64,000 nucleotides of DNA from Noviherbaspirillum soli. Its GTDB lineage: Bacteria > Pseudomonadota > Gammaproteobacteria > Burkholderiales > Burkholderiaceae_D. The stretch lies in contig NZ_JACYOX010000001.1 in the NCBI RefSeq assembly GCF_015352955.1, positions 62,001 through 126,000 of the forward strand, read 5' to 3'. The position numbers and the translations under genes are program-made. Positions 11,999 through 34,318 of the stretch are shown here, one piece after another (within the stretch, counting starts at the first letter, position 1; every line of letters begins with the position of its first letter). The notes under the pieces are model-generated. The model did not search any database, had not been told where the DNA came from, and worked only from the letters and a program-made list of their open reading frames with translations.

Positions 11999-13983
11999 GA
12001 AAAGAAGTCTGGTTTGGCGTCTCCATCCTGGTTGCCATCGTCCTGAGCTTGTTCGTATTGATGCCGCCGCCGTCGGAGATGACAAATGGCCATTTAGGCC
12101 TGTTGATGCTGGCGCTGATTGTCGTGGCGATCATGCTCGGCTTTCCCACGGCGTTTACGCTGATGGGAATGGGCGTGATCTTCACCTGGTTTGCCTATCG
12201 CAGCCAGAATCCCGACCTGGCGGTTCAGCAGACGCTGGACCTGATGGTGCAGCGCGCCTATTCCGTCATGGCCAACGACGTGCTCATTTCGATACCTCTG
12301 TTCATCTTCATGGGCTATCTCGTCGAGCGCGCCAATCTGATCGAGAAGCTGTTCCGCAGCCTGCATCTGGCGATGGCCCGGGTCCCCGGCTCGCTGGCGG
12401 TGGCCACCATCGTCACCTGCGCCGTGTTTGCCACGGCAACCGGTATCGTTGGCGCGGTAGTGACGCTGATGGGGTTGCTGGCCTTGCCGGCCATGCTCAA
12501 GGCGGGCTATGGGACTCAGCTGTCGGCCGGCGCAATCACGGCGGGCGGCGCGCTAGGCATCATCATCCCGCCGTCGGTGCTGCTGATCGTCTATGGCGCA
12601 ACGGCAGGCGTGTCCGTGGTCAAGCTTTATGCGGGCGCATTCTTCCCGGGCCTGTTGCTGGCGGCGCTGTACGTGGTGTATGTGATTGTGGTGGCCAAGC
12701 TCAAGCCGCATCTGGCGCCGCCGCTGTCGGCGGAAGATCGCAAGGTGGCCTTGCCGCCCTATGCGGTGTCGATACAGAGTGCCGGCAGCAGCCGCGCGGT
12801 GCCAGGCCTGCTGGCGGCGATCAAGGGGAAGCGCAATGCCGGCGTCCCTTCAAAGACGCTGATCTCGCAACTGCTGATCGCCTTGCTGCCGGCGTTTGCC
12901 TTCGTCGCCATGATGGCGGCGGTGTACCCGCTCGTCACTGCGCCAGAAGAAGCAAAGACGGAACTGGTCGAGATGGGAACGGAGAGCACTGCATTGTCGG
13001 ACGGCAATACCGACGGTGGCCTGGCGGAGCCTGGCACGGATGGCGGTCTTGCCGAGCCCGTGGCCGAGGGTAGCTTGGCAGAGCCGTCGGCATCCGGCGG
13101 GCTGGCCGAGCCATCGTCGCCGGGTACTGCAGCAATACCGGCGCCGGCCCAGGCGCCGCAAGGGGCTACCGCCGCTACGGCGACACCTGCCGCACCCGCC
13201 GTGCCTTCGCCTGACCAGCCTACCGCTAAACCGGCGCCGCAGGGCTACTGGATTGCGCTGGCGATCGGACTGGCGGCGCTAGTCGTGTTCTATGCGATCT
13301 TCACCTTCGCCAGGCTGGAAGTGTTCAAGATGCTGCTCGGCTCGCTGTTTCCGCTGATGTTTCTGATTCTGGCGGTGCTGGGCAGTATCGTGTTCGGGCT
13401 TGCCACGCCAACCGAAGCAGCGGCGATGGGCGCATTGGGTGCGCTGTTCCTCGCGGCAGCCTACCGGCGGCTCAACTTCGGCATGGTGCGCGAGTCGGTT
13501 TACCTGACGGCCAAGACCAGTGCGATGGTGTGCTGGCTTTTCGTTGGCTCCAGCATTTTTTCTGCCGCATTTGCGCTGCTGGGGGGCCAGGAAATCATCA
13601 ATGCCTGGGTACTGTCGATGGACCTGACGCCGCTGCAGTTCATGATCCTGGCGCAGGTCGTGATCTTCCTGCTGGGCTGGCCGCTGGAATGGACCGAGAT
13701 CATCGTGATCTTCATGCCGATCTTCGTGCCGCTGCTGGGACATTACAACATCGATCCCCTGTTCTTCGGATTGCTGGTGGCGATGAACCTGCAGACTGCC
13801 TTCCTGTCGCCGCCGGTGGCGATGTCGGCTTTCTACCTGAAGGGCGTGTCGCCGCCACATGTGACCCTGAACCAGATTTTCCTGGGAATGCTGCCGTTCA
13901 TGGGGATCCAGATCATTGCCCTGATCCTGTTGTACATGTTCCCTGCGATCGGCATGTGGCTGCCGGAGATGCTGTACAAGTGA
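11995..13983 (+). CDS. TRAP transporter large permease (DctM type) with long central insertion
   Basis: A 662-residue inner-membrane protein, the transport channel of the TRAP system; usual DctM proteins have about 430 residues. The N-terminal half (1-235) and the C-terminal half (from about 417) match the family (GGALGIIIPPSVLLIVYGA; LATPTEAAAMGALGALF; LGWPLEWTEIIVIFMPIF). Between them lies an insertion of about 180 residues. It has a hydrophobic segment, four near-repeats of GGLAEP (residues about 338-372) and an Ala/Pro-rich stretch. The frame is open throughout, so the insertion is not a sequencing frameshift. Translation is coupled to the small permease by an ATGA overlap. Confidence 0.9.
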   Translation: MRKEVWFGVSILVAIVLSLFVLMPPPSEMTNGHLGLLMLALIVVAIMLGFPTAFTLMGMGVIFTWFAYRSQNPDLAVQQTLDLMVQRAYSVMANDVLISIPLFIFMGYLVERANLIEKLFRSLHLAMARVPGSLAVATIVTCAVFATATGIVGAVVTLMGLLALPAMLKAGYGTQLSAGAITAGGALGIIIPPSVLLIVYGATAGVSVVKLYAGAFFPGLLLAALYVVYVIVVAKLKPHLAPPLSAEDRKVALPPYAVSIQSAGSSRAVPGLLAAIKGKRNAGVPSKTLISQLLIALLPAFAFVAMMAAVYPLVTAPEEAKTELVEMGTESTALSDGNTDGGLAEPGTDGGLAEPVAEGSLAEPSASGGLAEPSSPGTAAIPAPAQAPQGATAATATPAAPAVPSPDQPTAKPAPQGYWIALAIGLAALVVFYAIFTFARLEVFKMLLGSLFPLMFLILAVLGSIVFGLATPTEAAAMGALGALFLAAAYRRLNFGMVRESVYLTAKTSAMVCWLFVGSSIFSAAFALLGGQEIINAWVLSMDLTPLQFMILAQVVIFLLGWPLEWTEIIVIFMPIFVPLLGHYNIDPLFFGLLVAMNLQTAFLSPPVAMSAFYLKGVSPPHVTLNQIFLGMLPFMGIQIIALILLYMFPAIGMWLPEMLYK

Positions 13984-14012
13984 GCCCGTGTTGCCTTGCG
14001 TGACTGGGCCGA

Positions 14013-14045
14013 ATGCCGGCCGGAGCGATCCGGCCGGCATTTTTT
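14013..14045 (+). terminator. Rho-independent terminator of the TRAP operon
   Basis: Perfect 11-bp arms ATGCCGGCCGG (14013-14023) and CCGGCCGGCAT (14030-14040) enclose a 6-base loop, followed by five T. It ends the operon 30 bases past the large permease and faces a convergent LysR gene. Confidence 0.92.
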
Positions 14046-14068
14046 ATTGAGCCGGGGTCAGCTGCGCT

Positions 14069-14980
14069 CTAGGCAACGCCGCGGCGCCAGTAGTCCGGCC
14101 GGGCATAGGCGCGCCGGAGAAATTCGACGAAGGCGCGGATGCGCAACGGCAAATGCTGGCGTTGGGCGAAGACGGCGTAAATCGCGTTGCCAGGCGCGGC
14201 GAACTCGTCCAGCACCGTCACCAGCTGGCCGGCCTCGATGGCTGCGCCAACTTCCCACATCGAACGCCACGCCAGGCCCTTGCCGGCCAGAGCCCAGTCA
14301 TGCAGCACCGCGCCGTCGTTGCAGCCCATGTTGCCCGATACCTTGAGGGTGACGTTGCGGCCGTTGTGGCGGAATACCCAGCCGCGCTGGCTGCCTTCGC
14401 TGCTGATCGGCAGGCAGTTGTGGGAGGCGAGATCGTCGAGCGATTCGGGGCGGCCGTAGCGCTGGAGGTAGGCGGGGGAGGCCACCACCACCCGCTGGTT
14501 GTCTGCCAGCTTGACGCCGATCAGGCCGGAGTCGGTCAGCGAGGCAATCCGCACAGCGACGTCCACGCCTTCGCCGATCAGGTCGACCATGCGGTCGTTC
14601 AGGTTCAGGGTCAGGCTGACGTCCCGATGCTCGGCCAGGAAAGAGGGCATCAGCGGCGCGACATGCAGGCGGCCAAAGCCTGCCGGCGCCGAGATGGACA
14701 GATGGCCGGTGGCATTTGCACTGCGCTCGGCGACCGAGGCTTCGGCGTTTTCCAGGTCGGCGAGGATGCGCTGGCAGCTTTCCAGAAAGGCCGTGCCTTC
14801 ATGGGTAAGGGCGATTTTCCGTGTGGTGCGCTGCAGCAGCTTGACGCCAAGCCTGGATTCCAGCGCATCGAGGCGCCGGCTGATCATGGCTGGCGCCACG
14901 CCTTCGGCGCGCGCGGCGGCTGACAGGCTGCCCTTGCCAACCACATCGACGAACGTGGAGATCTGCTTGAACTGGTCCAT
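14069..14980 (-). CDS. LysR-family transcriptional regulator
   Basis: A 303-residue LysR-type regulator. The N-terminal winged helix is clear (MDQFKQISTFVDVVGKGSLS, AARAEGVAPAMISRRLDALE, LGVKLLQRTTRKIALT). The effector-binding domain follows from about residue 90 (GHLSISAPAGFGRLHVAPLM). The start at 14980 is where the usual LysR N terminus begins; the longer upstream frame reads into lpxH. It starts 5 bases after lpxH on the same strand, so it may be co-transcribed with it, which is unusual for a LysR gene. There is no divergent target gene, so its regulon is unknown. Confidence 0.92.
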   Translation of the reverse strand: MDQFKQISTFVDVVGKGSLSAAARAEGVAPAMISRRLDALESRLGVKLLQRTTRKIALTHEGTAFLESCQRILADLENAEASVAERSANATGHLSISAPAGFGRLHVAPLMPSFLAEHRDVSLTLNLNDRMVDLIGEGVDVAVRIASLTDSGLIGVKLADNQRVVVASPAYLQRYGRPESLDDLASHNCLPISSEGSQRGWVFRHNGRNVTLKVSGNMGCNDGAVLHDWALAGKGLAWRSMWEVGAAIEAGQLVTVLDEFAAPGNAIYAVFAQRQHLPLRIRAFVEFLRRAYARPDYWRRGVA

Positions 14981-14985
14981 GCGGT

Positions 14986-15801
14986 TCAGCCGGGCGTGGC
15001 GGCCGAGGCCTGCAGTGTCGCCGTGCCGTCCAGTCCGAAGCGGTGTATCGCGCCATTGGCGTCGATGCCAAGCCAGCCACCGCGGGGCGGCTGGCTGTCG
15101 CCGTCCCAGTCCGGCAGCACCAAACGTACATTGCCGCCATGCTGGTGCTTGCCGGGACGATGGGTGTGGCCGTGTATCAGCAGTGCGGCGCCGCTTTGGG
15201 CAAAGAGTGTGTCGATCGCGACCGGATTGACGTCCATGATGTCCATCGACTTGCCCAACTGCGCTTCGCGGCTGCCATTGCGCAGACCTTCGATGACGGC
15301 CTTGCGCTTTTCCAGCGACTGCGACAGGAATGCCTGCTGCCATTGCGGGCTTCGCACCTGGGTCCGGAACACCTGGTAGTCGATGTCATCGGTGCATTGG
15401 GCGTCGCCATGGGTAAGGATGACCTGCCGGCCGGCGATGCTTGCCACATGGGGATCGGGCAGCAGGGTGAGGCCGGCTGCCCTGGCGAATCCGTCGCCAA
15501 CCAGGAAATCCCGATTGCCGGCAATCCAGAACAGCGCCACGCCGGAGGCGCTGAGCGCGGCCAGCGCATCGACGATGCCGCGTACGAAGGGCGTGTCGAT
15601 GTCGTCGTCGCCAGCCCAGTATTCAAACAGATCGCCAAGGAGATAGAGTTGCCTTGCCCGGGAGGCGTGCTGCGCCAGAAAGGCCGCGAACAGCGACGCG
15701 GTGGATGGCGAGGAGGGCTGCAGGTGCAGGTCGGAAACAAACAGCGCGACCATGTCCGGCCGCGCTGCGGTCGCCGGCGCGAGAGGGGCCGGCGTAGTCA
15801 T
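14986..15801 (-). CDS. lpxH: UDP-2,3-diacylglucosamine diphosphatase
   Basis: A 271-residue metallophosphoesterase that hydrolyses UDP-2,3-diacylglucosamine to lipid X and UMP in the lipid A pathway, at the inner face of the inner membrane. All metal-binding motifs are present in order: SDLHL, GDLFEYW, GNRDFLV, LTHGD and HGHTHRP. I chose the ATG at 15801; a TTG at 15816 extends the frame by five codons. It is transcribed with the downstream LysR gene and follows the two cyclophilin genes in the same direction, an arrangement (ppiA-ppiB-lpxH) I associate with Burkholderiales. Confidence 0.95.
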   Translation of the reverse strand: MTTPAPLAPATAARPDMVALFVSDLHLQPSSPSTASLFAAFLAQHASRARQLYLLGDLFEYWAGDDDIDTPFVRGIVDALAALSASGVALFWIAGNRDFLVGDGFARAAGLTLLPDPHVASIAGRQVILTHGDAQCTDDIDYQVFRTQVRSPQWQQAFLSQSLEKRKAVIEGLRNGSREAQLGKSMDIMDVNPVAIDTLFAQSGAALLIHGHTHRPGKHQHGGNVRLVLPDWDGDSQPPRGGWLGIDANGAIHRFGLDGTATLQASAATPG

Positions 15802-23192: not shown

Positions 23193-23226
23193 GAAAACAG
23201 CCACTTTCGAGTGGCTGTTTTCTTTT
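23193..23226 (+). terminator. Rho-independent terminator after tRNA-Ser
   Basis: Perfect 13-bp arms GAAAACAGCCACT (23193-23205) and AGTGGCTGTTTTC (23210-23222) with a TTCG tetraloop, followed by TTTT. Confidence 0.93.
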
Positions 23227-23453
23227 CAGGATGCGCTTCAGCATCACTCCGCGATGCCTCGACCGCACCGCACCGGCAGCGCGGCGAGGGTAGCTGTCGT
23301 GGACAGGGCGTTCACAGGTCAATGAGGCCTTAACCTTCCACCAGGCAGCCATTGTCGCCAGACTGCAGCACAGGGCCGCTTTACAGCTTTCCTGTCTTGA
23401 CCCCTAGACATTCCGGCATCGTTCAATTCTTCTTCACATAGGCGACCCATTCC

Positions 23454-23858
23454 ATGGCCGAGCTGGCAAGGCTGACCTTCCCCGATCTGGTTTCCCTGGC
23501 GACTGCATCGTCCAATGTCAGCGCCATATGCGCCTGTTCTGGCCCGGCCTTGCGCAGCTGGCAAAGCGTTCCGCTGGCGCTGGCCGACGCGGATTTCAGG
23601 GACGTAGGCACGCTGCTGGAAGACCCCTATGTCGAGCCAACCTTCGTGGAATATCATCCGGCCGGGACACGCTATGGCTCGCCGGATGCGCCCATTGCGC
23701 CGCGCTATTTTCCCTGCAACCGCGCCAACGTGTCGGCATGCCTGCGCTGCGGCCGCATGTTCCTCCGCTATGTGGAGGCTGGCGGTTATTTCGTCGACCG
23801 CAGGATACGCGCGCTGTCGCCGGACCTGCTGATCGATGCGCCGCTTCCCGAGGCGTAG
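23454..23858 (+). CDS. Conserved hypothetical protein with C-terminal CxxC motif
   Basis: A 134-residue protein of unknown function. Its second half (YFPCNRANVSACLRCGRMFL, then RYVEAGGYFVDRRIR) resembles uncharacterised short proteins that I recall from other Burkholderiales. The Cys residues in NRANVSACLRCG form a CxxC that could bind a metal or be redox-active; this is inference. The N-terminal half is Ala/Leu-rich with no recognisable domain. There is no clear ribosome-binding site before the ATG at 23454, so the start is uncertain. It stands alone between tRNA-Ser and a convergent LysR gene. Confidence 0.65.
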   Translation: MAELARLTFPDLVSLATASSNVSAICACSGPALRSWQSVPLALADADFRDVGTLLEDPYVEPTFVEYHPAGTRYGSPDAPIAPRYFPCNRANVSACLRCGRMFLRYVEAGGYFVDRRIRALSPDLLIDAPLPEA

Positions 23859-23896
23859 ATCACCGTCGCGGCCTCAGGCAGAAAAACGCCTGGCTT

Positions 23897-24817
23897 CTAC
23901 ACCTGCTCCGGCTTGATGTCGTCCCCTTGCGCAACCAGTTCCTTCGCAATATCGAAGAATGCCCGCGGAATGGCGCCGGATTCCGATGCGCGGCTTGCCA
24001 GTGCCAGCTGGGTGATCACGCTGGGCGTATCGAAGGGCCGGAACAGCACGCCCTTGATGCCCAGGCTCTGGAACAGGTCGGGCAGGATGGAAATGCCGCA
24101 GCGGGCCGCCACCAGGCCCGTGATCGTGGCCACCTCGCGTGCTTCCATCGTGACCTTGGGCGTAAAACCCGCCTCCGCGCAGAGGCGATAGATCTCCAGG
24201 TTCAGCGTCGTGCCCTCATCCCGCGGAAACATCACGAAGTCCTCATTCCTGAGGTCGTCGATCGACAGATGCCCGATATCCGCCAGCCGGTGGTTGTCAG
24301 GCATCAGCACTGATAGCCGATGGTTCTGAAGGGTCGTCATCACGAGTTGACGCGGAATGTCGGTATCCATCGGCCGGATGAATGCCAGGTCCAGCGAGTA
24401 ATCCTCGAGGGCAGCCAGCTGCCGCATGGTCGACATTTCCTGCATCACCAGCTTCACGTTCGGGAACCGGGTGCGGTAGGTGTTGATGATCTTCGGAAAA
24501 ATCGGCGTGAAGGCGGTGGACTTGATGAAGCCGATCTTCAACTGGCCGATCTCGCCCTTCTCAACCCGACGCGCGGTCTCCGCCGCGCCGGCCGCCAGCG
24601 CCAATACCCGACAAGCGTCCTCCAGGAAAATCCGGCCGGCTTCGGTCAGCCGTATCGTTCGGCGCGAGCGGTCGAAAAGCACGGCGCCAATTTCCTCTTC
24701 CAGCGCCTGCACCTGCTGGCTCAGCGGCGGCTGTCCGATGTGCAGGCGGTCCGCGGCGCGCGTAAAGGAAAGTTCCTCGGCGACCGCAACGAAATACCGC
24801 AGGTGGCGTAACTCCAT
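23897..24817 (-). CDS. LysR-family transcriptional regulator of the hydroxyacid cluster
   Basis: A 306-residue LysR-type regulator in the BenM/CatR-like group, judged by MELRHLRYFVAVAEELSFTR and AADRLHIGQPPLSQQVQALE at the N terminus. The effector domain follows (GQLKIGFIKSTAFTPIFPKI). It is transcribed divergently from the aldolase-hydroxyacid dehydrogenase operon, the classic arrangement for a LysR activator and its target. A perfect inverted repeat TTTTAAAG/CTTTAAAA lies in the shared promoter region. The effector is probably the pathway substrate or an intermediate, which is unknown. Confidence 0.93.
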   Translation of the reverse strand: MELRHLRYFVAVAEELSFTRAADRLHIGQPPLSQQVQALEEEIGAVLFDRSRRTIRLTEAGRIFLEDACRVLALAAGAAETARRVEKGEIGQLKIGFIKSTAFTPIFPKIINTYRTRFPNVKLVMQEMSTMRQLAALEDYSLDLAFIRPMDTDIPRQLVMTTLQNHRLSVLMPDNHRLADIGHLSIDDLRNEDFVMFPRDEGTTLNLEIYRLCAEAGFTPKVTMEAREVATITGLVAARCGISILPDLFQSLGIKGVLFRPFDTPSVITQLALASRASESGAIPRAFFDIAKELVAQGDDIKPEQV

Positions 24818-24827
24818 CGTCGTATCT

Positions 24828-24853
24828 TTTTAAAGTATAGGTAAGCTTTAAAA
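24828..24853. promoter_or_regulatory. Candidate LysR operator
   Basis: TTTTAAAG (24828-24835) and CTTTAAAA (24846-24853) are perfect 8-bp inverted arms separated by 10 bases. They lie between the divergent LysR gene (start 24817) and the aldolase gene (start 24927). Size, symmetry and position fit a LysR recognition site. Confidence 0.6.
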
Positions 24854-24926
24854 CATATATTAGACAGATGACTTTTGCAAACCTATGATCTGTCCACGGC
24901 AAATAAAACCATTCAAGGAGACTGAA

Positions 24927-25604
24927 ATGCCAAACGTGGGCATGCGCATTAACGAATCGATCGTTCGTCCCGACCCAGCCGTCATCGATGCCTTCAGGCG
25001 TCTCCCGGTTGCCAACATCGGCGACAGCATCAACCGCACCTTCTGCATGCATCCGGCGATCAGGCCGTACAACGACAATCCGCTGGCCGGACCGGCCTTC
25101 ACCGTCAAGGTCAGGCCCGGCGACAACCTGCTGCTGCACAAGGCGCTCGACCTGGCGGCGCCGGGCGATGTCATCGTGGTTGACGGCCAGGGCGACATGT
25201 CCAACGCGCTGATCGGCGAACTGATGGTGCTGTGGGCCATCAAGCGCGGGCTGGGCGGCATCATCGTCGATGGGGCGATCCGCGATGTGAACTGCCTCAG
25301 GACCGTCAGCATTCCGGTCTATGCAGCGGGCGTGACGCCGGCCGGGCCTTACAAGGAAGGCCCTGGCGAGATCAATTTTCCGGTGGTCTGCGGCGGCGTT
25401 GTCGTGCATCCCGGCGACATCATCGTAGGCGATGCGGACGGGGTAGTCGTAATCAATCCGCGGGATGCGGGCAGCGTGCTGGAAAAGGCGAGCGCGAAGT
25501 CGCGGGACGAGCAGCAAACGCTGATCGACATCGAGAACGGCACATGGGGCCGCGGCTGGGTGGATGCGACGCTGGCCGCGAAAGGCTGCGAACTGGGCCG
25601 TTGA
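24927..25604 (+). CDS. RraA-family aldolase/decarboxylase-like protein
   Basis: A 225-residue RraA-fold protein. Relatives include 4-hydroxy-4-methyl-2-oxoglutarate / 4-carboxy-4-hydroxy-2-oxoadipate aldolases, which release pyruvate using a divalent metal, and oxaloacetate decarboxylases. The core is visible: GELMVLWAIKRGLGGIIVDG, then AIRDVNCL with the Arg-Asp pair, and GDIIVGDADGVVVI. The acidic residue usually three positions after that pair in the aldolases is Cys here, so exact activity is uncertain. The ATG at 24927 has AAGGAG upstream. It is the first gene of the putative 2-hydroxyacid operon and divergent from its LysR regulator. Confidence 0.85.
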   Translation: MPNVGMRINESIVRPDPAVIDAFRRLPVANIGDSINRTFCMHPAIRPYNDNPLAGPAFTVKVRPGDNLLLHKALDLAAPGDVIVVDGQGDMSNALIGELMVLWAIKRGLGGIIVDGAIRDVNCLRTVSIPVYAAGVTPAGPYKEGPGEINFPVVCGGVVVHPGDIIVGDADGVVVINPRDAGSVLEKASAKSRDEQQTLIDIENGTWGRGWVDATLAAKGCELGR

Positions 25605-25667
25605 TGCCAACAGGCCATCCACTGCTTGCCTAACCAGGACTGCCGGCCTCGCCGGCATGGGAACGCC

Positions 25668-26891
25668 ATGAAAGAGACAAGGATGGCGGCGCGCCGCTTG
25701 CGGTCGGTGCTCTGTCTGGACGACTTCGAGGCCGCCGCCAGACAGCACCTGCCGAGACCGCTGTTTGGCTATATCGCTGGCGCTGCTGAGACCAATGCGT
25801 CGCTACGGTGGAATGCGCAAAGCTTTGGCCGCTATGCCTTTCTGCCCAGGGTGATGGTGGATGTGTCCAGCCGCTCCCAGGCCGTGACCCTGTTTGGCGA
25901 AACCTATGCTTCGCCAATTGGTATAGCGCCGATGGGACTGAGCGCGCTGACTTCCTACCGCGGCGATATCGTGCTTGCACAGGCGGCCGAGGAAGCACGG
26001 GTGCCGATGATCATGAGCGGCTCGTCGCTGATTCCGCTGGAGGAAGTGGCACAGGTGTCGAAAGGCGCATGGTTCCAGGCCTATCTTCCGGGCCAGGTCG
26101 AGCAGGTCAGGGCGCTGATTGACCGCGTTGCGCTTGCCGGATTCACGACCCTGGTGATCACGGTCGACACGCCGGCACAGGCCAACCGGGAGAACAATGT
26201 CCGCACCGGGTTTTCAACGCCGTTGCGCCCGAGCTTGCGTCTTGCATGGGATGGATTGTCGCGACCGTCCTGGCTCCTCGGCACGTTTGCCCGCACGCTG
26301 CTCCGGCACGGCATGCCGCACTTCGAGAACAACTATGCCACGCGCGGCGCGCCCATCCTGTCTGCCAATGTCGTCAGGGATTTCTCGGACCGCGGGCACT
26401 TCACCTGGGAGCACCTGAAGCTGATCCGCAGCCTGTGGCAGGGGCCGCTGGTGATCAAGGGCGTGCTTCGCAGCGAGGACGCGGCAACGGCCTGCCGCAT
26501 CGGTGTGGACGGCATCATCGTGTCGAACCACGGCGGCCGCCAGCTGGACGGCAGCGTCGCCCCGCTGCTTGTATTGCAGCAGATCGTCGAGGCGGCAGGG
26601 ACGACGCCGGTGATGATCGATAGCGGCGTGCGCAGCGGCTCGGATGTGCTGAAGGCGCTTGCGCTGGGCGCTCGCATGGCCTTCGTCGGCAGGCCTTTCG
26701 CCCATGCGGCCGCGGTGGCAGGCAAGGCAGGCGTCGCCCACGGCATCGCGCTGCTGAAGGAAGAAGTTTCACGCAACATGGCCATGCTGGGAATCTGCGG
26801 CATCAATGAAATGACGATGGATCGCCTCGTCGCACTCGACCGGCAGGCCGTTCCCATCGAAGACATCGCTACTGACGAAAGGGCAGCGTAA
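25668..26891 (+). CDS. FMN-dependent L-2-hydroxyacid dehydrogenase (LldD/mandelate dehydrogenase family)
   Basis: A 407-residue FMN enzyme that oxidises an L-2-hydroxy acid to the 2-oxo acid. The TIM-barrel signatures are present: PIGIAPMGLSAL, VITVDTPAQANRENNVRTGF, VIKGVL and the active-site His-Arg motif SNHGGRQLDG, then DSGVRSGSDVLKALALGA for the FMN phosphate. It differs from lactate oxidase only in ways that cannot be judged by eye. The start at 25668 is the most upstream reasonable ATG; one at 25683 is possible. Its stop overlaps the start of the next gene (TAATG), so they are co-translated. Confidence 0.9.
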   Translation: MKETRMAARRLRSVLCLDDFEAAARQHLPRPLFGYIAGAAETNASLRWNAQSFGRYAFLPRVMVDVSSRSQAVTLFGETYASPIGIAPMGLSALTSYRGDIVLAQAAEEARVPMIMSGSSLIPLEEVAQVSKGAWFQAYLPGQVEQVRALIDRVALAGFTTLVITVDTPAQANRENNVRTGFSTPLRPSLRLAWDGLSRPSWLLGTFARTLLRHGMPHFENNYATRGAPILSANVVRDFSDRGHFTWEHLKLIRSLWQGPLVIKGVLRSEDAATACRIGVDGIIVSNHGGRQLDGSVAPLLVLQQIVEAAGTTPVMIDSGVRSGSDVLKALALGARMAFVGRPFAHAAAVAGKAGVAHGIALLKEEVSRNMAMLGICGINEMTMDRLVALDRQAVPIEDIATDERAA

Positions 26892-27922
26892 TGACAGTCA
26901 AACTCAAGGTGGTGCGCTCGGGCACCTGGACCAATCCGGTTTTCGATGAACTGCTCGGCAGCCATCCCGGCGTCGATCTCGACGTATTTTCCATCAGCGG
27001 CGCCGATGAGGAAGCCTGGAGCAAGCTGGCGCAGGCGCAGGTGTATCACCTGATGGCGTCACGCGACGACTTGCCAGCGCAGTGGCATGTGACTGATGAA
27101 TTGCTGCTGCGCTGCCCAAGCCTGCTCTGCGTTTCCTCGTCGGGCGCGGGATACGACACCATCGATGTCAAGGCATGCACGAAGGCCGGCGTGGCCGTGG
27201 TGAACCAGGCCGGCGGCAATGCGATGTCGGTGGCGGAGCAAGCCTTCGGCCTGATGATCGCCGTCTCCAGGCGGCTGTGCGAACAGGACCGGCGGCTGCG
27301 CCGCGGCGAGCGATTCAGCCGCGAAGAGGTGATGGGCCACGACATCAGCGGCAGGGTGCTCGGCCTGGTGGGCATGGGGCATATCGGCACGCGCATGGCC
27401 AGCCTGGCACGTGCATTCAACATGACAGTGCTTGCCACAGATCCTTATCTTGGTGCGCAGGAGATCGAGGAGCGGGGCGCGACGCCGGTTGCCATGAATG
27501 AACTGCTGGCCCGCTGCGATATCGTCTCGCTGCACTGTCCGCGCAACAAGGAGACGCTGGGCATGTTCGATGCCGCTGCCTTTCAGGCGATGAAGCAGGG
27601 CGCCCTGTTCATTACCACGGCGCGCGGCGGCATCCATGATGAAGCCGCGCTGGCGCAAGCGCTGCAGGCAGGACACTTGCGGGGCGCCGGGCTGGACGTA
27701 TGGAGCGTCGAGCCGCCGCCTGCCGACCATCCATTGCTTGCGATGGGCAATGTGGTCGCCACTCACCACACCGCCGGTGTGTCGCATGAGGCGCGCTACA
27801 ACATCGCCAAAGTCGCCGCGGAGCAGATCGCCTTGCTGGCAGGCGGCGGCAGGCCGCCGCGGCTCGTCAATCCGGAAGTCTGGCCTGTGTATTCGGAGCG
27901 CTTCAGGCAAGCGCTGCTGTAG
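26891..27922 (+). CDS. NAD(P)-dependent D-isomer-specific 2-hydroxyacid dehydrogenase
   Basis: A 343-residue D-2-hydroxyacid dehydrogenase that interconverts 2-oxo acids and D-2-hydroxy acids. The Rossmann motif GLVGMGHIGTRMA (around residue 158) and the catalytic residues are recognisable: Arg in TTARGGIHDE, Glu in VWSVEPPPADHP and His in THHTAGVSHE. The C-terminal substrate region is normal. It overlaps the L-hydroxyacid dehydrogenase gene by one base. Having an L- and a D-specific enzyme in one transcript suggests isomer interconversion or use of both forms of a substrate. Confidence 0.9.
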   Translation: MTVKLKVVRSGTWTNPVFDELLGSHPGVDLDVFSISGADEEAWSKLAQAQVYHLMASRDDLPAQWHVTDELLLRCPSLLCVSSSGAGYDTIDVKACTKAGVAVVNQAGGNAMSVAEQAFGLMIAVSRRLCEQDRRLRRGERFSREEVMGHDISGRVLGLVGMGHIGTRMASLARAFNMTVLATDPYLGAQEIEERGATPVAMNELLARCDIVSLHCPRNKETLGMFDAAAFQAMKQGALFITTARGGIHDEAALAQALQAGHLRGAGLDVWSVEPPPADHPLLAMGNVVATHHTAGVSHEARYNIAKVAAEQIALLAGGGRPPRLVNPEVWPVYSERFRQALL

Positions 27923-28043
27923 CGAGATCATGGCGCATGTGCTCACGGGCCAGCACATGCGTCGGCTTACCCACATCCGGCATCCCGGCTGATTGCCCGG
28001 CTTTCATCAAAACCATCCATCCCAATGGAGAAGGAGACAAACC

Positions 28044-29057
28044 ATGTCCAGACAACTGTGCGCCCGCAAGCGCAATTCCCTGCCCGCCATGCTGGCGCCA
28101 CTGGTGGCCATTGCGGCGATGCTGGCGCCCGGCGTCGGCGCGGCGACTGACACAAGCGCGTACCCAACCAAACCGATCAACCTGATCGTCGCTTATGCGG
28201 CGGGCGGCGGGTCGGACATGGTGGTGCGCCTGCTCACGCCCTTCATCGAAAAGGAGCTTGGCAACAATGCCAGAATCGTCGTCTCCAACAAGCCGGGTGC
28301 GGGCGGCGCGATCGGGTTCAGCGAACTGGCGCGCTCCGCGCCGGACGGCTATACGATCGGCCTGATCAACACGCCGAACGTTCTGACGATACCGATCGAG
28401 CGCAAGACGACCTTTACCTGGCGCAGCTTCGACCTGCTCGGCAATATCGTGGACGACCCCGGCAACTTCTCGGTGCATGCAGACAGTCCGATCAAGTCCC
28501 TGCAGGAACTGGCACGGCAGGCGAAGGCCGCGCCGGGAAAGATCAGCGTCGGAACCACCGGCACCGGCTCGGACGACCATCTGGCGATGCTGCTGTTCCA
28601 GAAGATTGCGAATGTGCAGATGATCCATGTGCCGTACAAGGGCGCATCGGAAGTGCGTACCGCGGCGCAGGGCCAGCAGATCGATGTGGCCGCGGTCAAT
28701 ATCGGCGAGGCCCAGCAGTTTGCCAAGGCCGGCACGCCGTTGCGCCATCTTGGCGTGATGAGCGCCGCACGCAATCCCCTGGCGCCGGATGTGCCGACCT
28801 TCAAGGAGCAGGGCTACGACATCAACCTGGTGTCGCTGCGCGGCCTGGCTGCACCCAAAGGGCTGCCGGCCGACATACGCATCCGCCTCGTGGCCGCTAC
28901 CGAGAAGGCCATCGCCAATCCGGAGTTCCAGAAGAAGGCAACGCAGGCCTTCGCGCCGGTGCGCTATCTGGCGCCGGACCGCTATGAAGCCGAACTGAAG
29001 GAAAGCGACGAGCAATTCCAGAAATTGTGGAAAGACATGCCCTGGGGCGAGAAATAA
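28044..29057 (+). CDS. Bug-family tripartite tricarboxylate-type solute-binding protein
   Basis: A 337-residue periplasmic binding protein of the Bug (Bordetella uptake gene) family. The signal peptide (basic ARKRNS, hydrophobic MLAPLVAIAAMLAPGVGA) precedes the mature start YPTKPINLIVAYAAGGGSDM, the typical Bug N-terminal signature. The ATG at 28044 has AAGGAG upstream. Bug proteins bind small carboxylates; here the ligand is probably a hydroxy or oxo acid by context. No TctA/TctB membrane subunits are nearby, so it is an orphan binding protein, as are most of this expanded family. Confidence 0.93.
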   Translation: MSRQLCARKRNSLPAMLAPLVAIAAMLAPGVGAATDTSAYPTKPINLIVAYAAGGGSDMVVRLLTPFIEKELGNNARIVVSNKPGAGGAIGFSELARSAPDGYTIGLINTPNVLTIPIERKTTFTWRSFDLLGNIVDDPGNFSVHADSPIKSLQELARQAKAAPGKISVGTTGTGSDDHLAMLLFQKIANVQMIHVPYKGASEVRTAAQGQQIDVAAVNIGEAQQFAKAGTPLRHLGVMSAARNPLAPDVPTFKEQGYDINLVSLRGLAAPKGLPADIRIRLVAATEKAIANPEFQKKATQAFAPVRYLAPDRYEAELKESDEQFQKLWKDMPWGEK

Positions 29058-29078
29058 TCCAGTGAGGAGTAAAGCCTG

Positions 29079-30491
29079 ATGACCAGTCCTGAATTCCTGC
29101 ATGCCTGTTGCGAGGTCCTCGGCCCCATGCATGTGCTGACCGCGCCGGAAGACATGGCGCCGTATCTCACCGACTGGCGCGGCCGGTTCACCGGCAATGC
29201 CGCCGCCGTGCTGCGCCCGGCCGATACCCTGCAGGTCGCGGCCATCGTTGCCCTGTGCGCCGAAGCGAAGGTGCCGCTGGTGCCGCAGGGCGGCAATACC
29301 GGCCTGGTCCTGGGCAGCGTACCCGACGGTGCGGGAAACGCGGTCGTGCTGTCCCTGAAGCGCATGAACCGCATCCGTGCCATCGATCTCGTCAACAACA
29401 CCATCACGGTGGAGGCCGGCAGCATACTGGAAGAGGTGCAGAACGCGGCCAGCAAGGCGGACCGGCTGTTTCCGCTGTCGCTGGCGGCCGAAGGCAGCTG
29501 CACCATCGGCGGCAACCTGGCGACCAACGCTGGCGGCACGGCCGTTCTGCGCTATGGCAGCATGCGCGACCTGTGCCTAGGACTGGAAGTGGTGACGGCG
29601 GACGGGAAGGTCTGGGACGGCCTTCGGGGACTGCGCAAGGACAATACCGGCTACGACCTGCGCAACCTCTTCATCGGCGCCGAAGGCACGCTGGGCATCA
29701 TCACCGCCGCCGTGCTGAAACTGTTCCCGCAGCCCAGGGCGCAGGTGACGGCACTGGTAGGGCTGAACACGCCGGAGGATGCGCAGCGCCTGCTGGCGAT
29801 GGCGCAGGCCACCTGCGCTTCCGGCCTGACCGGATTCGAACTGATGTCGGCATTCAGCGTTGCGCTGGTGGCCAGGCATTTTCCGCAGATGCGGACCGGA
29901 TTCCAGGACGCCCATGCCCAGTATGTGCTGCTGGAGATTTCCGACAGCGAATCGGAGGCGCATGCCACGGCCATGCTGGAAGCAGTCGTTGAGGAGGCGA
30001 TGGAAGGCGCGGTGGTGTGCGATGCGGTTGTCGCCTCATCCATTGCGCAGTCCAGAGCGTTGTGGAGCCTCAGGGAACACATCACGCTGGCCCAGGCCGC
30101 CGAGGGCAAGCATGTCAAGCATGATGTCTCGGTGCCGATTTCGTCGATCGCAGAGTTTATCGGGCAGACCGACACGCTGCTGCAGCGGGCCTTTCCCGGA
30201 TGCCGGATGGTGACCTTCGGGCATCTTGGCGATGGCAACCTTCACTACAACGTGTCGGCGCCGGAAACGATGGCGGATGAAACGTTCATCCTGCATCAGG
30301 AGGCGATCAATAGGATCGTGCATGACAGCGCCGTGCGGTTCGGCGGCTCGATCTCCGCCGAACATGGACTGGGCATGCTCAAGCGCGACGAGATACGGCG
30401 CTACAAGTCGGACGTTGAACTGGGACTGATGATGGCGATAAAGAAGGCGCTCGATCCGCATCAGCTGATGAACCCCGGCAAGGTGCTTTGA
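29079..30491 (+). CDS. FAD-linked D-2-hydroxyacid dehydrogenase (GlcD/D2HGDH family)
   Basis: A 470-residue FAD-dependent oxidoreductase of the vanillyl-alcohol-oxidase fold. The FAD-binding region is PLVPQGGNTGLVLGSVPDG, the metal/substrate region is VTFGHLGDGNLHYNVSAPE, and the C-terminal stretch SISAEHGLGMLKRDEI ends with LDPHQLMNPGKVL. Relatives oxidise D-2-hydroxyglutarate, D-lactate or glycolate. GGAGTAAAG lies before the ATG at 29079. It is the last gene of the cluster begun at 24927, with a 21-base gap after the binding protein. Confidence 0.92.
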   Translation: MTSPEFLHACCEVLGPMHVLTAPEDMAPYLTDWRGRFTGNAAAVLRPADTLQVAAIVALCAEAKVPLVPQGGNTGLVLGSVPDGAGNAVVLSLKRMNRIRAIDLVNNTITVEAGSILEEVQNAASKADRLFPLSLAAEGSCTIGGNLATNAGGTAVLRYGSMRDLCLGLEVVTADGKVWDGLRGLRKDNTGYDLRNLFIGAEGTLGIITAAVLKLFPQPRAQVTALVGLNTPEDAQRLLAMAQATCASGLTGFELMSAFSVALVARHFPQMRTGFQDAHAQYVLLEISDSESEAHATAMLEAVVEEAMEGAVVCDAVVASSIAQSRALWSLREHITLAQAAEGKHVKHDVSVPISSIAEFIGQTDTLLQRAFPGCRMVTFGHLGDGNLHYNVSAPETMADETFILHQEAINRIVHDSAVRFGGSISAEHGLGMLKRDEIRRYKSDVELGLMMAIKKALDPHQLMNPGKVL

Positions 30492-30642
30492 GCCTGCGAG
30501 CCCGACCTGCCGAAGCGCCGGGCTCACGGCCTGTCGCAAGCCTTCCGGCAACGGCGCCCGATGGCTGACGGCAATCCATGGCCATCGCGATCCTGCAGCG
30601 GCGCGGTATCATGCTGCTCCGATTCATCGCCGCCCATCTTCC

Positions 30643-31269
30643 ATGCTCACGCCCGAACAGTTCTTCGCCTTCCTTGCCGCGGCCATCCTGATCACCGCGT
30701 CGCCCGGTCCGGACAACCTGATGGTGCTGGGCTTCGGCGTCTCGCGCGGGCGCAGGCAGGGCATGGTGTTCGGGCTGGGCTGCGCGCTCGGATGCCTGAG
30801 CCATACGCTGCTTGCCGCGGTTGGCATCAGCGGGCTGATCGCGGCGTCGCCGATGGCATTCGGCGCATTGAAGGTGGCGGGCGGCCTGTACCTGCTGTGG
30901 CTGGGCGTGCAGGCGCTGCGCAGCCGCGGCGGCGCCAAGGTGGGAACGGTGGCCGGACCGCAACTGCCCTTGCGCGCGCTGTTCGCCAAGGGCCTGTTTG
31001 CCAATGCGATCAATCCCAAGGTCGTGCTGTTCTTCCTTTCCTTCCTGCCCCAGTTCGTGATTGCAGACAACGGCCATGTGGCGCTGCAGACGGTTCAGCT
31101 GGGCCTGACATTCACGCTGCAGGCTGCCGTGCTGTTCGGGGCGCTGGGCTATTTCTCCGGCAGCATAGGGCAGTGGCTGCAACGGCGGCCGGGCGCGCCG
31201 CTCTGGCTCGATCGCATCGCCGGCGTGATCTTCATCGGGCTCGGACTGAAGCTGATCGCCGGTCGATAA
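30643..31269 (+). CDS. LysE-family amino acid exporter
   Basis: A 208-residue inner-membrane exporter of the LysE/RhtB type. The N terminus has the family stretch FLAAAILITASPGPDNLMVL, and six hydrophobic segments follow, with GLYLLWLGVQALRS in the middle and FFLSFLPQFV later. The export substrate (homoserine, threonine, lysine and others) cannot be told. It lies 151 bases after the hydroxyacid cluster in the same direction and may or may not share its transcript. Confidence 0.92.
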   Translation: MLTPEQFFAFLAAAILITASPGPDNLMVLGFGVSRGRRQGMVFGLGCALGCLSHTLLAAVGISGLIAASPMAFGALKVAGGLYLLWLGVQALRSRGGAKVGTVAGPQLPLRALFAKGLFANAINPKVVLFFLSFLPQFVIADNGHVALQTVQLGLTFTLQAAVLFGALGYFSGSIGQWLQRRPGAPLWLDRIAGVIFIGLGLKLIAGR

Positions 31270-31306
31270 CGGTCAGGCCGGCGACCATCGTCATGTCACG
31301 GGCGCC

Positions 31307-33619
31307 TCAATAGCGGTACCTGAGTTCGGCGAACACGGTACGCTGCGGGAAGGGATGGAACAGGAAGTACTTGCGGTTGTTGATGTTGTCGATGCCGGCG
31401 GCAACCGTCCAGTGCCTGCCATGCTTGTACTGCACCCGAGCATCGACCACCAGGTAACCCTGGAAGCCCTGGTAAGTGCCGGGGTTGATGTCACTGTTGT
31501 CCACTGTCGCATAGACCCTGCTGCTGTAGCGCGCGGCCAGTGTGTGGCTCCATTGCTCGTCGGGCCGCCAGGTCGCTACCGCGGTGGCGCGCCATGCCGG
31601 TACATACGGCGTGCGTTTCCCGACCGAGGTGGCGCCGGCGGCGGTCGGCGCATAGCTGCTGTTGGCCACGATCGTGGCATCCACATAGGTCATGCTGGCC
31701 GACAGGTCGAGGCCGCGTGCCCAGACATTGCGCCGCTCGGCCACCAGTTCAATGCCGCGCTGCCGGGTGCGGTCCAGGTTCTGCACGAAGGACAGCGGCG
31801 TTGCAATGCCGGCGATGGCGGAGGTCTGCGCAACCAGTGCATCGTCGACCAGTTCCCCGAACAGCGACAGGCGCAGCCTGCCGTCGGCATCGCCGCGTTC
31901 CAGCGCCAGCTCCGCCGAGCGGACGTCCTCGGGCTTGAGAAAGGGATTGGCCTGGATGAAGGTGGCGCCGGTCTGCACGCTCTGGTACAACTCGCCGACC
32001 GTTGGAAAGCGCAGCGCCCTGGCCAGCGAAGCCGTCGCCGACCACAGCGGCGCGGCTTGCCACGCCAGCGAGAACTTGGGCGAGAAGCCGGAGCGGCGCA
32101 GTTCGGGCTGGTCGATCGGAAACAGCGCGCCGCTGGCGTTGCTGGACAGGTTGAAGCCGTCGTAGGCATGCCAGCGCTCGTAACGGCCGCCCACTGAAGC
32201 CGTCAGCGCCGGTGCGACCTGCCAGACATCCTGCGCCCACAGCGCCTCGGTGCGGGTGCTGCCCCTGGCATCGCCGGTGAGCGCGCCGGCGGCGCCGTTC
32301 TCCCATTGCGCGGTGGCGTAGCTCGGGCTTTCCAGCCGATAGCGGTCGAGATGCGCGCCCACGGCCAGGCGATGGCGCGCGCCGTCGGCCTGACGCCATC
32401 CGCCGGAAAGATCCAGCGTGCTCCAGCCGGTGCCGGCGGCGTCGGTGATGCGGCCCGCGGCATCGCTGCGTCCATAAGCCCCGGTCGAGGTGCGGACCAG
32501 GTCCCTGCCATAGCTGAAGTTGCTGGCCTGCGCTTCCCAGGTGAAAGCCTGGTCGCGGGCGGAGCGCAGCGACAGGCCGTGCATCCAGTGCGCCTGCTCG
32601 GTCGTGTTGGCGGAAAACAGGCTGCGCAGGCCGGCCGCGCTGTAGCCGTTGCCGTTCAGGGCCACCGTCCCGGATGCCGCGCCGTAGTAAGGCTGGCCGC
32701 CGGCATCGCGCAGGAATGACAATGCGCCGGCTTGCGCACTGTTTTGCCAGTAGCCCAGGGTATAGGCCGCGCGCATGCCGGCGGGAAGGTCGTAGCCCAG
32801 CCTGAGCGTTGCGCTGTCCTGCACGGTGTGGGTCAGGTTGCCGGCGCCGACGATCTGAACCGGCGCGCCGCTGCGGTTGCGGTCGGCGATGGCGCCCTGG
32901 ATCGGCGCCGCCGCGCCCGCGGCCTGCGCCGACTGCGCGCTGGTCAGGTAGGTTACCGGCTGGCTGAAGCTGCTGAGATGATTGAAGGCCAGGCGCCACG
33001 ACCAGTCGCCGCTGCGGTCGCCCAGGCTGACGCTGGCCTGGGTCGCGGGGTAACGGTCGCTCAGCCCGTAAAGACCGAAATTCTGGCTCGACAGCGTCAG
33101 GCCGGCCGCGGCTTCGAAGCCGGCCGGCTGCCTGGTGCTGATCTCGGTCACCGCGCCGAAGGAATTGCCCGGATAGGCAGCCGAGTAGGGACCATACAGG
33201 GTATCGATGCGTTCGACCTCGCCCGGCGCCACCATGAACCACTGCGGCGAGCCGTTCTGGTTATTGTTGTTGATCAGGGCCGAGAGAAGAATGCCGTCGA
33301 CATAGATCAGGCTGCGGGCGCTGGCATTGGTGCCGGTGGTCCGGGTTGCCATCGGCGCCTGGGTGTCGCCGATATAGCGCTTGCGCAGCAGGATGCTGGG
33401 CTGGTATTTCAGCAGGTCTTCGGTATTGATGGCATTGACGGTCTCCGCCGCCTGCTGCGCCGTCGCGCTTTCCATGGTGTGTCCGGGCTGGGCGCGCGGC
33501 ACTGGCACGGCCTGTGACTCTATCGTGATTGCAGGCAGGGTCTGGTCGCTGGCCTGGGCATGCAAGGCGCCCAGGCAGGCGAGCGCCGCGGCCGCCGGCC
33601 GCAAGGTGATGTGTTTCAT
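31307..33619 (-). CDS. TonB-dependent outer-membrane receptor
   Basis: A 770-residue TonB-dependent receptor. A signal peptide (LRPAAAALACLGALHAQA) precedes a TonB-box-like ITIESQ, then the plug domain (EDLLKYQPSILLRKRYIGDT, RSLIYVDGILLS, ERIDTLYGPYSAAYPGNSFG) and a long beta-barrel ending in an aromatic residue (LRYRY). The ATG at 33619 is placed at the signal peptide. It lies 145 bases downstream of a DUF2946 protein that has a His/Asp-rich stretch. Such pairs suggest metal, perhaps copper, uptake; the ligand is not provable from sequence. Confidence 0.92.
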   Translation of the reverse strand: MKHITLRPAAAALACLGALHAQASDQTLPAITIESQAVPVPRAQPGHTMESATAQQAAETVNAINTEDLLKYQPSILLRKRYIGDTQAPMATRTTGTNASARSLIYVDGILLSALINNNNQNGSPQWFMVAPGEVERIDTLYGPYSAAYPGNSFGAVTEISTRQPAGFEAAAGLTLSSQNFGLYGLSDRYPATQASVSLGDRSGDWSWRLAFNHLSSFSQPVTYLTSAQSAQAAGAAAPIQGAIADRNRSGAPVQIVGAGNLTHTVQDSATLRLGYDLPAGMRAAYTLGYWQNSAQAGALSFLRDAGGQPYYGAASGTVALNGNGYSAAGLRSLFSANTTEQAHWMHGLSLRSARDQAFTWEAQASNFSYGRDLVRTSTGAYGRSDAAGRITDAAGTGWSTLDLSGGWRQADGARHRLAVGAHLDRYRLESPSYATAQWENGAAGALTGDARGSTRTEALWAQDVWQVAPALTASVGGRYERWHAYDGFNLSSNASGALFPIDQPELRRSGFSPKFSLAWQAAPLWSATASLARALRFPTVGELYQSVQTGATFIQANPFLKPEDVRSAELALERGDADGRLRLSLFGELVDDALVAQTSAIAGIATPLSFVQNLDRTRQRGIELVAERRNVWARGLDLSASMTYVDATIVANSSYAPTAAGATSVGKRTPYVPAWRATAVATWRPDEQWSHTLAARYSSRVYATVDNSDINPGTYQGFQGYLVVDARVQYKHGRHWTVAAGIDNINNRKYFLFHPFPQRTVFAELRYRY

Positions 33620-33764
33620 GGTGGATTCCAATTCTTCCGTTGCTGCTGAAGCCGCCCGGAAGGCGGGCGGCGTGCAGGAAGCACTGGCCGCGCAATGGTA
33701 GCCTTCGGCCAGCACGAGCTTGTCCGGACAACGCATGGCGTGCCCGGCGCGACACAAGGTCAGG

Positions 33765-34181
33765 TCAGCAAACTGCCGGCGGTGCCCGGGGTTGGGCGCT
33801 GCGCCAGGCATGCAGCAGCGAGGGCGCCAGGAAGAACAGCAATGGCCGTGAGGGCCTGGTTGCGATGGGAAGAATGGGTAAGGCTACGACGGGCACCTGC
33901 AATGCGTCGGCATGCAGATGGCAGAACGGACAGTGTTCCAGATGGAGCGCAGGGGAGGGGGCTGGCCCATGCCCGCCGGCATGCGCATGGTCTGCGTCGG
34001 CGTCGGCGTCGGTGCTGCAAAGGTCTTCCGGCGCGCCTTCATCGGCAATCTGAATCTGCGCATGGGAAAGTTGGGCCGATTGTGCGAGGGCATGGGAAAT
34101 TGTCGGCGCCACCGATGCGATGACCACCGCGAACATGGCCAGCCAGGCTGCCACGGCACGCTGCAATTTCCTTTTTCCCAT
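33765..34181 (-). CDS. DUF2946-like secreted protein with His/Asp-rich stretch
   Basis: A 138-residue small protein with an N-terminal signal anchor (LAMFAVVIASVAPTISHALA). The central part is rich in Asp and His (DADADADHAHAGGHG), followed by EHCPFCHLHADAL with a CxxC motif as in DUF2946 proteins, then a hydrophobic segment near LLFFLAPSLLHAW. These residues could bind a transition metal. It lies immediately upstream of the TonB-dependent receptor gene and is probably co-transcribed. An A+T-rich palindrome covers the place where a ribosome site would be, so leaderless or weak translation is possible. Confidence 0.65.
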   Translation of the reverse strand: MGKRKLQRAVAAWLAMFAVVIASVAPTISHALAQSAQLSHAQIQIADEGAPEDLCSTDADADADHAHAGGHGPAPSPALHLEHCPFCHLHADALQVPVVALPILPIATRPSRPLLFFLAPSLLHAWRSAQPRAPPAVC

Positions 34182-34182
34182 T

Positions 34183-34275
34183 GTTAATATTTTAACAGGG
34201 GGTTATATCAATCCCAACCCATAACATCCCGGATGAAACCAATGGATTTTTTCGTCTGGCTATGGGTTGGGATTG
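34183..34275. repeat. Palindrome and long inverted repeat upstream of the DUF2946 gene
   Basis: GTTAATATTTTAAC (34183-34196) is a near-perfect palindrome two bases before the start codon. Further upstream, CAATCCCAACCCATA (34209-34223) and TATGGGTTGGGATTG (34261-34275) are perfect 15-bp inverted arms 37 bases apart. They may be operator sites for a metal regulator or form an RNA structure between the lipoprotein and DUF2946 genes. Confidence 0.7.
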
Positions 34276-34318
34276 GTATTAAATCCGGTTGGAGCAAGGA
34301 GGCCGGGGCAAGACGCAC

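Follow-up and report, generated by a model that had tools for sequence, protein, structure and literature searches.

A LysR-linked gene block of Noviherbaspirillum soli as a candidate operon for a short 2-hydroxy-dicarboxylic acid, tentatively tartrate

The described systems closest to the one treated here, a block of five genes faced by a LysR-type regulator in a 64,000-nucleotide stretch (hereafter the window) of Noviherbaspirillum soli contig NZ_JACYOX010000001.1, each share some of its features. In the TtuC-type tartrate dehydrogenase route, a single soluble, NAD-dependent member of the isopropylmalate-dehydrogenase family leads via oxaloglycolate to D-glycerate; the likeness lies in the oxaloglycolate and hydroxypyruvate intermediates and the D-glycerate product that we propose below, whereas the block encodes a pair of flavoenzymes and, as a protein of its own, an RraA-like lyase; no isopropylmalate-dehydrogenase-family enzyme occurs in the ten genes scanned, to which this search was confined. 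The 4-hydroxy-4-methyl-2-oxoglutarate/4-carboxy-4-hydroxy-2-oxoadipate (HMG/CHA) aldolase of the protocatechuate 4,5-cleavage pathway (3noj) has a fold family, an Arg-Asp pair and a class of enolate chemistry in common with the block's RraA-like protein; the latter, by contrast, carries Glu for Asp and stays below the curated cut-offs, and no aromatic-pathway genes are among the ten scanned. D-2-hydroxyglutarate dehydrogenase (D-2-HGDH; human 6lpn, and the dhdR-d2hgdh operon of A. denitrificans) resembles the block's FAD enzyme, in which eight of nine substrate and metal residues are kept, but the block gene stands in a LysR-linked set with a lyase and a Bug-type binding protein, and the genome holds a separate paralogue of 67% identity. 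Finally, Bacillus-type clusters (e.g. locus L030, with genes for an NAD dehydrogenase, RraA, a fumarylacetoacetate hydrolase (FAH) relative and IlvD-like and galactarate-dehydratase-like proteins) also place an NAD 2-hydroxyacid dehydrogenase beside RraA relatives; their NAD enzyme, however, is GhrB-like and only about 34% identical, and sugar-acid dehydratase-like genes take the place of the flavoenzymes. Is there, then, a described pathway with this gene set? None was found among the open-access literature matches listed, although subscription work may exist, and to this extent the remark in the original prediction, whose author knew of no pathway with this exact set, holds. The gene families are known; their combination and modular make-up appear undescribed in the same matches.

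We tentatively propose that the block forms an operon, controlled by LysR, through which a short 2-hydroxy-dicarboxylic acid serves as carbon source, with tartrate as the best fit. It is likely that the block lets the bacterium feed on a small organic acid, and the gene set is probably switchable, its parts being ordinary as far as their sequences tell. The Bug protein would assist uptake of the hydroxy acid, the FMN and FAD enzymes would oxidise its (S) and (R) centres to one common 2-oxo acid and pass the electrons to respiration, the RraA-like lyase would cleave or decarboxylate this 2-oxo acid via an enolate, and the NAD enzyme would reduce the resulting small oxo compound to a D-hydroxyacid or, alternatively, serve as a further D-specific entry. 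In the tartrate version, D- or meso-tartrate would be oxidised by the FMN enzyme and L- or meso-tartrate by the FAD enzyme to oxaloglycolate, from which RraA would form hydroxypyruvate or tartronate semialdehyde and CO2, NADH-dependent reduction then yielding D-glycerate for glycerate kinase. It is the combination of RraA-class enolate chemistry, a dicarboxylate signature and two stereospecific flavoenzymes that leads us to this route, and tartrate, the C4 aldaric acid, is favoured because it was the sole candidate we could think of that gives the four enzymes separate steps for a common natural acid; tartrate itself nevertheless remains a guess, and a doubtful one. If it were correct, there would be a flavin-linked route to D-glycerate that is distinct from both the dehydratase and the NAD-dehydrogenase routes. 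An earlier reading of the block as uptake, oxidation and cleavage or decarboxylation of a hydroxy acid is borne out in outline, in that the block is operon-like, is repeated gene for gene in two other genomes and consists of fitting families. Two of its elements must be given up. Citramalate is ruled out as substrate because its hydroxyl sits on a tertiary carbon, and 2-hydroxyacid dehydrogenases cannot oxidise tertiary alcohols; and the three hydroxyacid dehydrogenases, all present, stand not for three stereochemistries but for one L-specific and two D-specific families.

The dicarboxylate signature lies in the FAD enzyme, which matches 3pm9 with 501 bits and human D-2-HGDH with 301 bits, and in which the C1-carboxylate, metal and catalytic residues of the human enzyme (R386, H434, H441, E475, H476) are all kept. 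In human D-2-HGDH, T390, K401, Y432 and N443 bind the distal carboxylate and are replaced in GlcD and in most D-lactate dehydrogenases, as reported in PMC7801405. The block enzyme keeps T390, K401 and N443 and, like all eight distinct genes compared, has Phe in place of Y432. With three of the four distal-carboxylate residues retained, the block substrate is more probably a hydroxy-dicarboxylate than some other kind of acid.

The enolate chemistry would be supplied by the RraA-like protein, which reaches the PRK06201 subfamily model (‘hypothetical protein’) with 284.3 bits against a cut-off of 231. Its E98, R119 and D120, spaced as E98-x20-R119-D120, are invariant in 16 aligned rows; the Arg-Asp pair is present, besides the window protein, in 111 of 111 RraA loci compared, a few of them being the same gene twice, and Glu stands at the place of E98 in 102 of the 111. 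Class II pyruvate aldolases decarboxylate oxaloacetate too, through a common enolate step (PMC5065237), and a Flavobacterium enzyme of the RraA family is reported, in PMC8563752, to act on a 2-keto-3-deoxy sugar diacid as dehydratase/decarboxylase. Could the protein be an aldolase after all? In an aldol route, 2,4-dihydroxyglutarate or its 4-methyl form would be oxidised at C2 by the FMN and FAD enzymes to 4-hydroxy-2-oxoglutarate or HMG, RraA would release pyruvate together with glyoxylate or pyruvate, and the NAD enzyme would convert glyoxylate to glycolate. The closest solved sequence to RraA is indeed the HMG/CHA aldolase of P. putida F1 (3noj), the NAD enzyme is similar to glyoxylate reductases and the FAD enzyme is like D-2-HGDH, an enzyme of a C5 diacid. 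However, RraA stays under both HMG/CHA aldolase cut-offs (161.9 against 179 bits and, for the curated equivalog, 141.8 against 304.5) and has Glu where the aldolase has Asp, 21 positions ahead of the Arg-Asp pair, in the D-x20-R-D motif. Since, to our knowledge, 2,4-dihydroxy acids are not common nutrients either, we regard the aldol route as unlikely.

The NAD enzyme keeps R245, E274, H293 and D184, invariant in 18 rows, which are presumably the Arg/Glu/His catalytic set and the acidic NAD residue. Its structural model (predicted local distance difference test score of 90) has McyI as the nearest solved fold, some entries of which hold NAD and malate, followed by glyoxylate/hydroxypyruvate reductases; no McyI paper was among the open-access literature matches listed. 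As far as the model goes, these fold neighbours would fit a malate-type as well as a hydroxypyruvate-type substrate. It is therefore conceivable that oxaloacetate is formed oxidatively from D- or L-malate, or 3-alkyloxaloacetate from 3-alkylmalates, and that RraA would decarboxylate it to pyruvate or a homologue, the NAD enzyme acting as a D-malate-type dehydrogenase. This malate-type route can draw on the McyI entries, on the oxaloacetate decarboxylation just mentioned and on the finding that human D-2-HGDH binds and oxidises D-malate (PMC7801405). Yet oxaloacetate from plain malate would enter central metabolism without RraA, the enzymes would duplicate malate dehydrogenase, and the whole set would be needed only for a substituted malate; we consider this route improbable as well, and return to the hydroxy-dicarboxylate operon with tartrate as its best fit.

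What is the distribution of the block? The order LysR-RraA-FMN-NAD-Bug-FAD recurs in a genome of the same genus (G015, proteins 89-92% identical) and in one of another genus of the family (G023, 67-79%), so that the search of other genomes suggested in the original prediction turned up two genomes besides the own one with an unchanged order, and others with partial versions. Within the genus, the NAD gene is found at E<=1e-110 in two of four genomes, the own one included. Among 399 Burkholderiales genomes searched with the NAD enzyme (E<=1e-70), 21 gave matches, 13 (own included) at 53-100% identity and eight at 43-50% (nine matches). Eight of the 13 genomes with a close NAD copy have an RraA gene within about 2.5 kb and a Bug protein 58-100% identical to that of the window, and five of these eight also have the FMN gene; the nine weaker NAD loci show neither RraA nor a near full-length Bug above 50% in the 10-17 kb fetched. 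The NAD rows of the block loci together with those of L196, L201 and L202 form one group of 19, with a Shimodaira-Hasegawa-like approximate likelihood ratio test (SH-aLRT) support of 95. Judged by sequence over these 399 genomes, the core of the block is one NAD-dehydrogenase subfamily. RraA, FMN and NAD genes also stand together in Jezberella montanilacus (L067), in two uncultured betaproteobacteria (L068, L079) and in a metagenome-assembled Herminiimonas genome (L004); the L004 contig ends inside the NAD gene, L079 is cut inside Bug, and no Bug was seen in L067 and L068. Relatives of the FMN enzyme, on the other hand, occur at E<=1e-100 in 42 of the 399 genomes, and of the 20 stretches fetched four hold the RraA-NAD-Bug set whereas most lack it, which assigns the FMN enzyme to a wider family. 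A plasmid collection yielded a single record at E<=1e-50, from Roseomonas, in an unrelated neighbourhood.

Bug proteins are numerous, with few known ligands, and RraA-like proteins abound, most of them having no known substrate; a pair of NAD dehydrogenase and Bug with a replaceable RraA partner would thus link one lineage of each to a small-molecule pathway. Among 58 Bug rows with more than 220 matched residues, the ten that are over 50% identical (window included) form one clade (SH-aLRT 99), a group set by identity, with nothing between 58% and 38%. Across the class, relatives at E<=1e-80 were found only in the own genome out of 369, a sample with few genomes of its order; the own genome has 56 first-look Bug candidates. 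The Bug open reading frame (ORF) opens at TTG 27993, and the real start is most likely, from its sequence context, ATG 28044, which lies behind GGAGAAGGAGAC, a strong ribosome site, and is followed by a stretch like a signal peptide.

In contrast to the core, the lyase seems to have been exchanged. In a quick tree of 120 RraA rows with some long branches, the 11 block members fall into three groups: the window, G015, G023 and Herminiimonas, near Planococcus and Desulfovibrio; L147, L154, L067, L068 and L079; and L158 with L162. Forcing all 11, a set fixed beforehand by gene context, into one clade is 122 log-likelihood units worse (approximately unbiased test p 1.8e-8, thinned set of 79 rows); without L158 and L162, the remaining nine as one clade give p 0.017, a group chosen after the tree was seen and thus lending less support to the argument for an exchangeable lyase. 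On this phylogenetic evidence, at least two RraA origins in the blocks are firm and three are likely. Furthermore, the gene ahead of the NAD gene in L196 (G392), in RraA's place, belongs to the FAH superfamily (PF01557, 1.4e-74), FAH-fold proteins being known to include oxaloacetate decarboxylases, and in L201 and L202 the preceding gene encodes a xylose-isomerase-like TIM barrel. The repeated recruitment of RraA, with FAH standing in for it, suggests that the block needs a lyase or decarboxylase step. Perhaps, then, the window holds one version of a respiratory pathway of modular build that serves aldaric acids, above all tartrate. An NAD-Bug core would be joined by stereospecific flavoenzymes as entry gates and by a decarboxylase of enolate chemistry that can be exchanged (FAH, or RraA of several origins), with D-glycerate as the common end point; in this full form we think the idea rather unlikely. 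In the wider RraA family, 31 of 80 fetched loci have a gene of an NAD 2-hydroxyacid dehydrogenase cluster within 6 kb, and all 35 such ORFs lie on the same strand. The RraA relatives in Bacillus-type loci adjoin sugar-acid dehydratase-like genes; L030 of Cytobacillus moreover encodes, at 13798-15084, a nickel-pincer isomerase (NCBIfam group 22, 519.6 bits against a cut-off of 400) near its RraA, FAH and galactarate-dehydratase-like genes, and this isomerase may act on the same sugar acid. The RraA relatives of Lachnospiraceae and further Clostridiales loci (L017, L035, L041, L050, L078) adjoin 5-oxoprolinase-subunit-like genes, as judged by eye from the sequence starts.

The FMN enzyme keeps the catalytic Y24, Y129, D157, R164, K230, H254 and R257 in glycolate oxidase numbering, all seven being present in 26 of 27 rows (L150 lacks R164); the catalytic residues examined are hence intact in all four enzymes. 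The best solved match of the FMN enzyme is (S)-mandelate dehydrogenase 6bfg, which has a glycine at the same place, and the FMN enzyme misses the LldD L-lactate dehydrogenase cut-offs (251.5 against 550 and 279.8 against 376 bits); none of the three dehydrogenases attains a curated NCBIfam cut-off. A looser salvage set for lactate- or mandelate-like 2-hydroxy monocarboxylates, with RraA acting on another substrate or regulating RNase E, would agree with the closeness of the FMN enzyme to mandelate and lactate dehydrogenases and with the differing composition of blocks between genomes, but is very improbable, as the FAD enzyme mostly keeps its second-carboxylate residues, RraA keeps R119/D120, lies above the PRK06201 cut-off and below that of the RNase E regulator (98.7 against 136 bits) and entered such blocks more than once, and no lactate-type permease or thiamine pyrophosphate-dependent decarboxylase is among the ten neighbouring genes scanned. 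A lactate or mandelate operon proper was rejected on the same absence and the missed cut-offs.

Several observations weigh against the hydroxy-dicarboxylate operon and its tartrate version. The FAD paralogue of the own genome has the same residues as the block enzyme, and the A. denitrificans D2HGDH is reported in PMC8651671 to be distinctly active only on D-2-hydroxyglutarate and not on D-malate; the signature consequently does not fix the exact acid. An FAD gene over 50% identical was seen to adjoin the block in three genomes only (those of the window, G015 and G023), and the FMN gene is found in five of the 13 genomes with a close NAD copy, which limits the dicarboxylate argument, strictly taken, to the lineage of the window. 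Another five of these 13 (L196, L197, L200, L201, L202) have no nearby RraA, FMN or block Bug (BLAST, 1e-10), their Bugs reaching 31-32% only, and no hydroxypyruvate isomerase model is among the matches of the TIM-barrel partner in L201 and L202. No tartrate gene was recognised beside any block, although not every neighbour was scanned. Finally, glycerate kinase families occur in all 12 genomes tested (PF13660 in ten, PF02595 in four), drawn from 16 known carriers of the NAD subfamily, but also in 78 of 100 control genomes of the order (PF13660 in 54, PF02595 in 25, one with both), three of the 12 being among these controls as well; being this common, their presence is consistent with the proposal and does not discriminate.

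Table 1. Features of the block and its surroundings (window coordinates)
Feature	Position	Strand	Evidence or remark
LysR-type regulator, divergent	23897-24817	-	HTH_1 1.3e-24, LysR_substrate 9.5e-36
Divergent regulatory region	24818-24926	none	sigma-70-like site and inverted repeats
RraA-like lyase, fold of class II pyruvate aldolase/oxaloacetate decarboxylase, PRK06201 subfamily	24927-25604	+	PF03737 1.7e-49
FMN-dependent (S)-2-hydroxyacid dehydrogenase, mandelate-dehydrogenase-like	25668-26891	+	PF01070 2.5e-118
NAD(H)-type D-2-hydroxyacid dehydrogenase	26891-27922	+	PF02826 6.4e-59
Hairpin between NAD dehydrogenase and Bug genes	27934-27961	+	two perfect 10-base arms, no T-run
Bug/TctC periplasmic binding protein	ORF 27993-29057, preferred gene 28044-29057	+	PF03401 1.7e-47
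FAD-dependent D-2-hydroxyacid dehydrogenase, D-2-HGDH-like	29079-30491	+	PF01565 8.4e-38, PF02913 1.7e-50
LysE-type exporter, 151 bases downstream of FAD gene	30643-31269	+	PF01810 2.3e-36
TonB-dependent receptor	31307-33811	opposite to block	convergent with block

The layout of the locus (Table 1) is the one first described for it, a LysR gene facing a five-gene block: all six genes are present, and the limits given for the block, 24927 and 30491, prove exact. Along the window the order is accA-like, tilS, lysC, tRNA-Ser, LysR, RraA, FMN, NAD, Bug, FAD, LysE and TonB receptor, and the best Pfam domains of the block genes range in E-value from 1.7e-47 to 2.5e-118 (9.5e-36 for LysR). Gaps within the block are 63, -1, 70 and 21 bases, the third widening to 121 if Bug starts at ATG 28044. 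These short gaps, the 1-base overlap of the FMN and NAD genes and the lack of terminator-like sites on the + strand in the gaps between block genes make it likely, from spacing, that the five genes are co-transcribed. Membership of the LysE exporter in the operon is doubtful; a counterpart occupies the same position in L114 (95% identical), and none was found in L115, whose stretch stops about 430 bases past the FAD gene.

The LysR gene lies 109 bases from the RraA gene and has counterparts in the same position in L114 (91% identical) and L115 (67%). The intervening region, besides its inverted repeats, holds the sigma-70-like site TAGACA-17-TATGAT at 24861-24889 (10/12 promoter match); over three genomes its -10-like hexamer does not vary, and its -35-like hexamer shows a single base difference, in G023. 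LysR genes of another kind accompany L147/L154 and L158/L162; L147 and L154 share a common type (48% to each other) unlike the window's, which implies that the regulator changed while the enzymes and Bug were kept. The hairpin ahead of Bug is an exact pattern match against 0.01 expected, and a similar stem with one swapped base pair is seen by eye in G015 and is absent in G023; although rare by pattern, it lies in a gap that as a whole folds no better than shuffles (z -0.33). It is a possible mRNA processing or stability element that may set a different expression level for the binding protein.

In a relative of the same genus without the block (G055; L229, L232), the match to the window runs as far as 23221, immediately after lysC and tRNA-Ser(gct), and resumes at 34318; the two matching parts are separated there by about 10.8 kb of different sequence. 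This colinearity on both sides places LysR, the block, LysE and the TonB receptor, by sequence comparison, within an exchanged segment of about 11 kb (23222-34317), and marks the block as accessory, at a variable place behind a tRNA gene. In G078 the match likewise ends, at 23227, and in the 28 kb read the right side reappeared only as a single 43-base match; in G023, lysC and the block are on different contigs. The tRNA-Ser was considered as integration site and rejected, as a repeat of its terminal 12-18 bases was looked for in the window and not found. The TonB-dependent receptor matches haem/siderophore-type models, all below cut-offs, and adjoins the block in G015 too.

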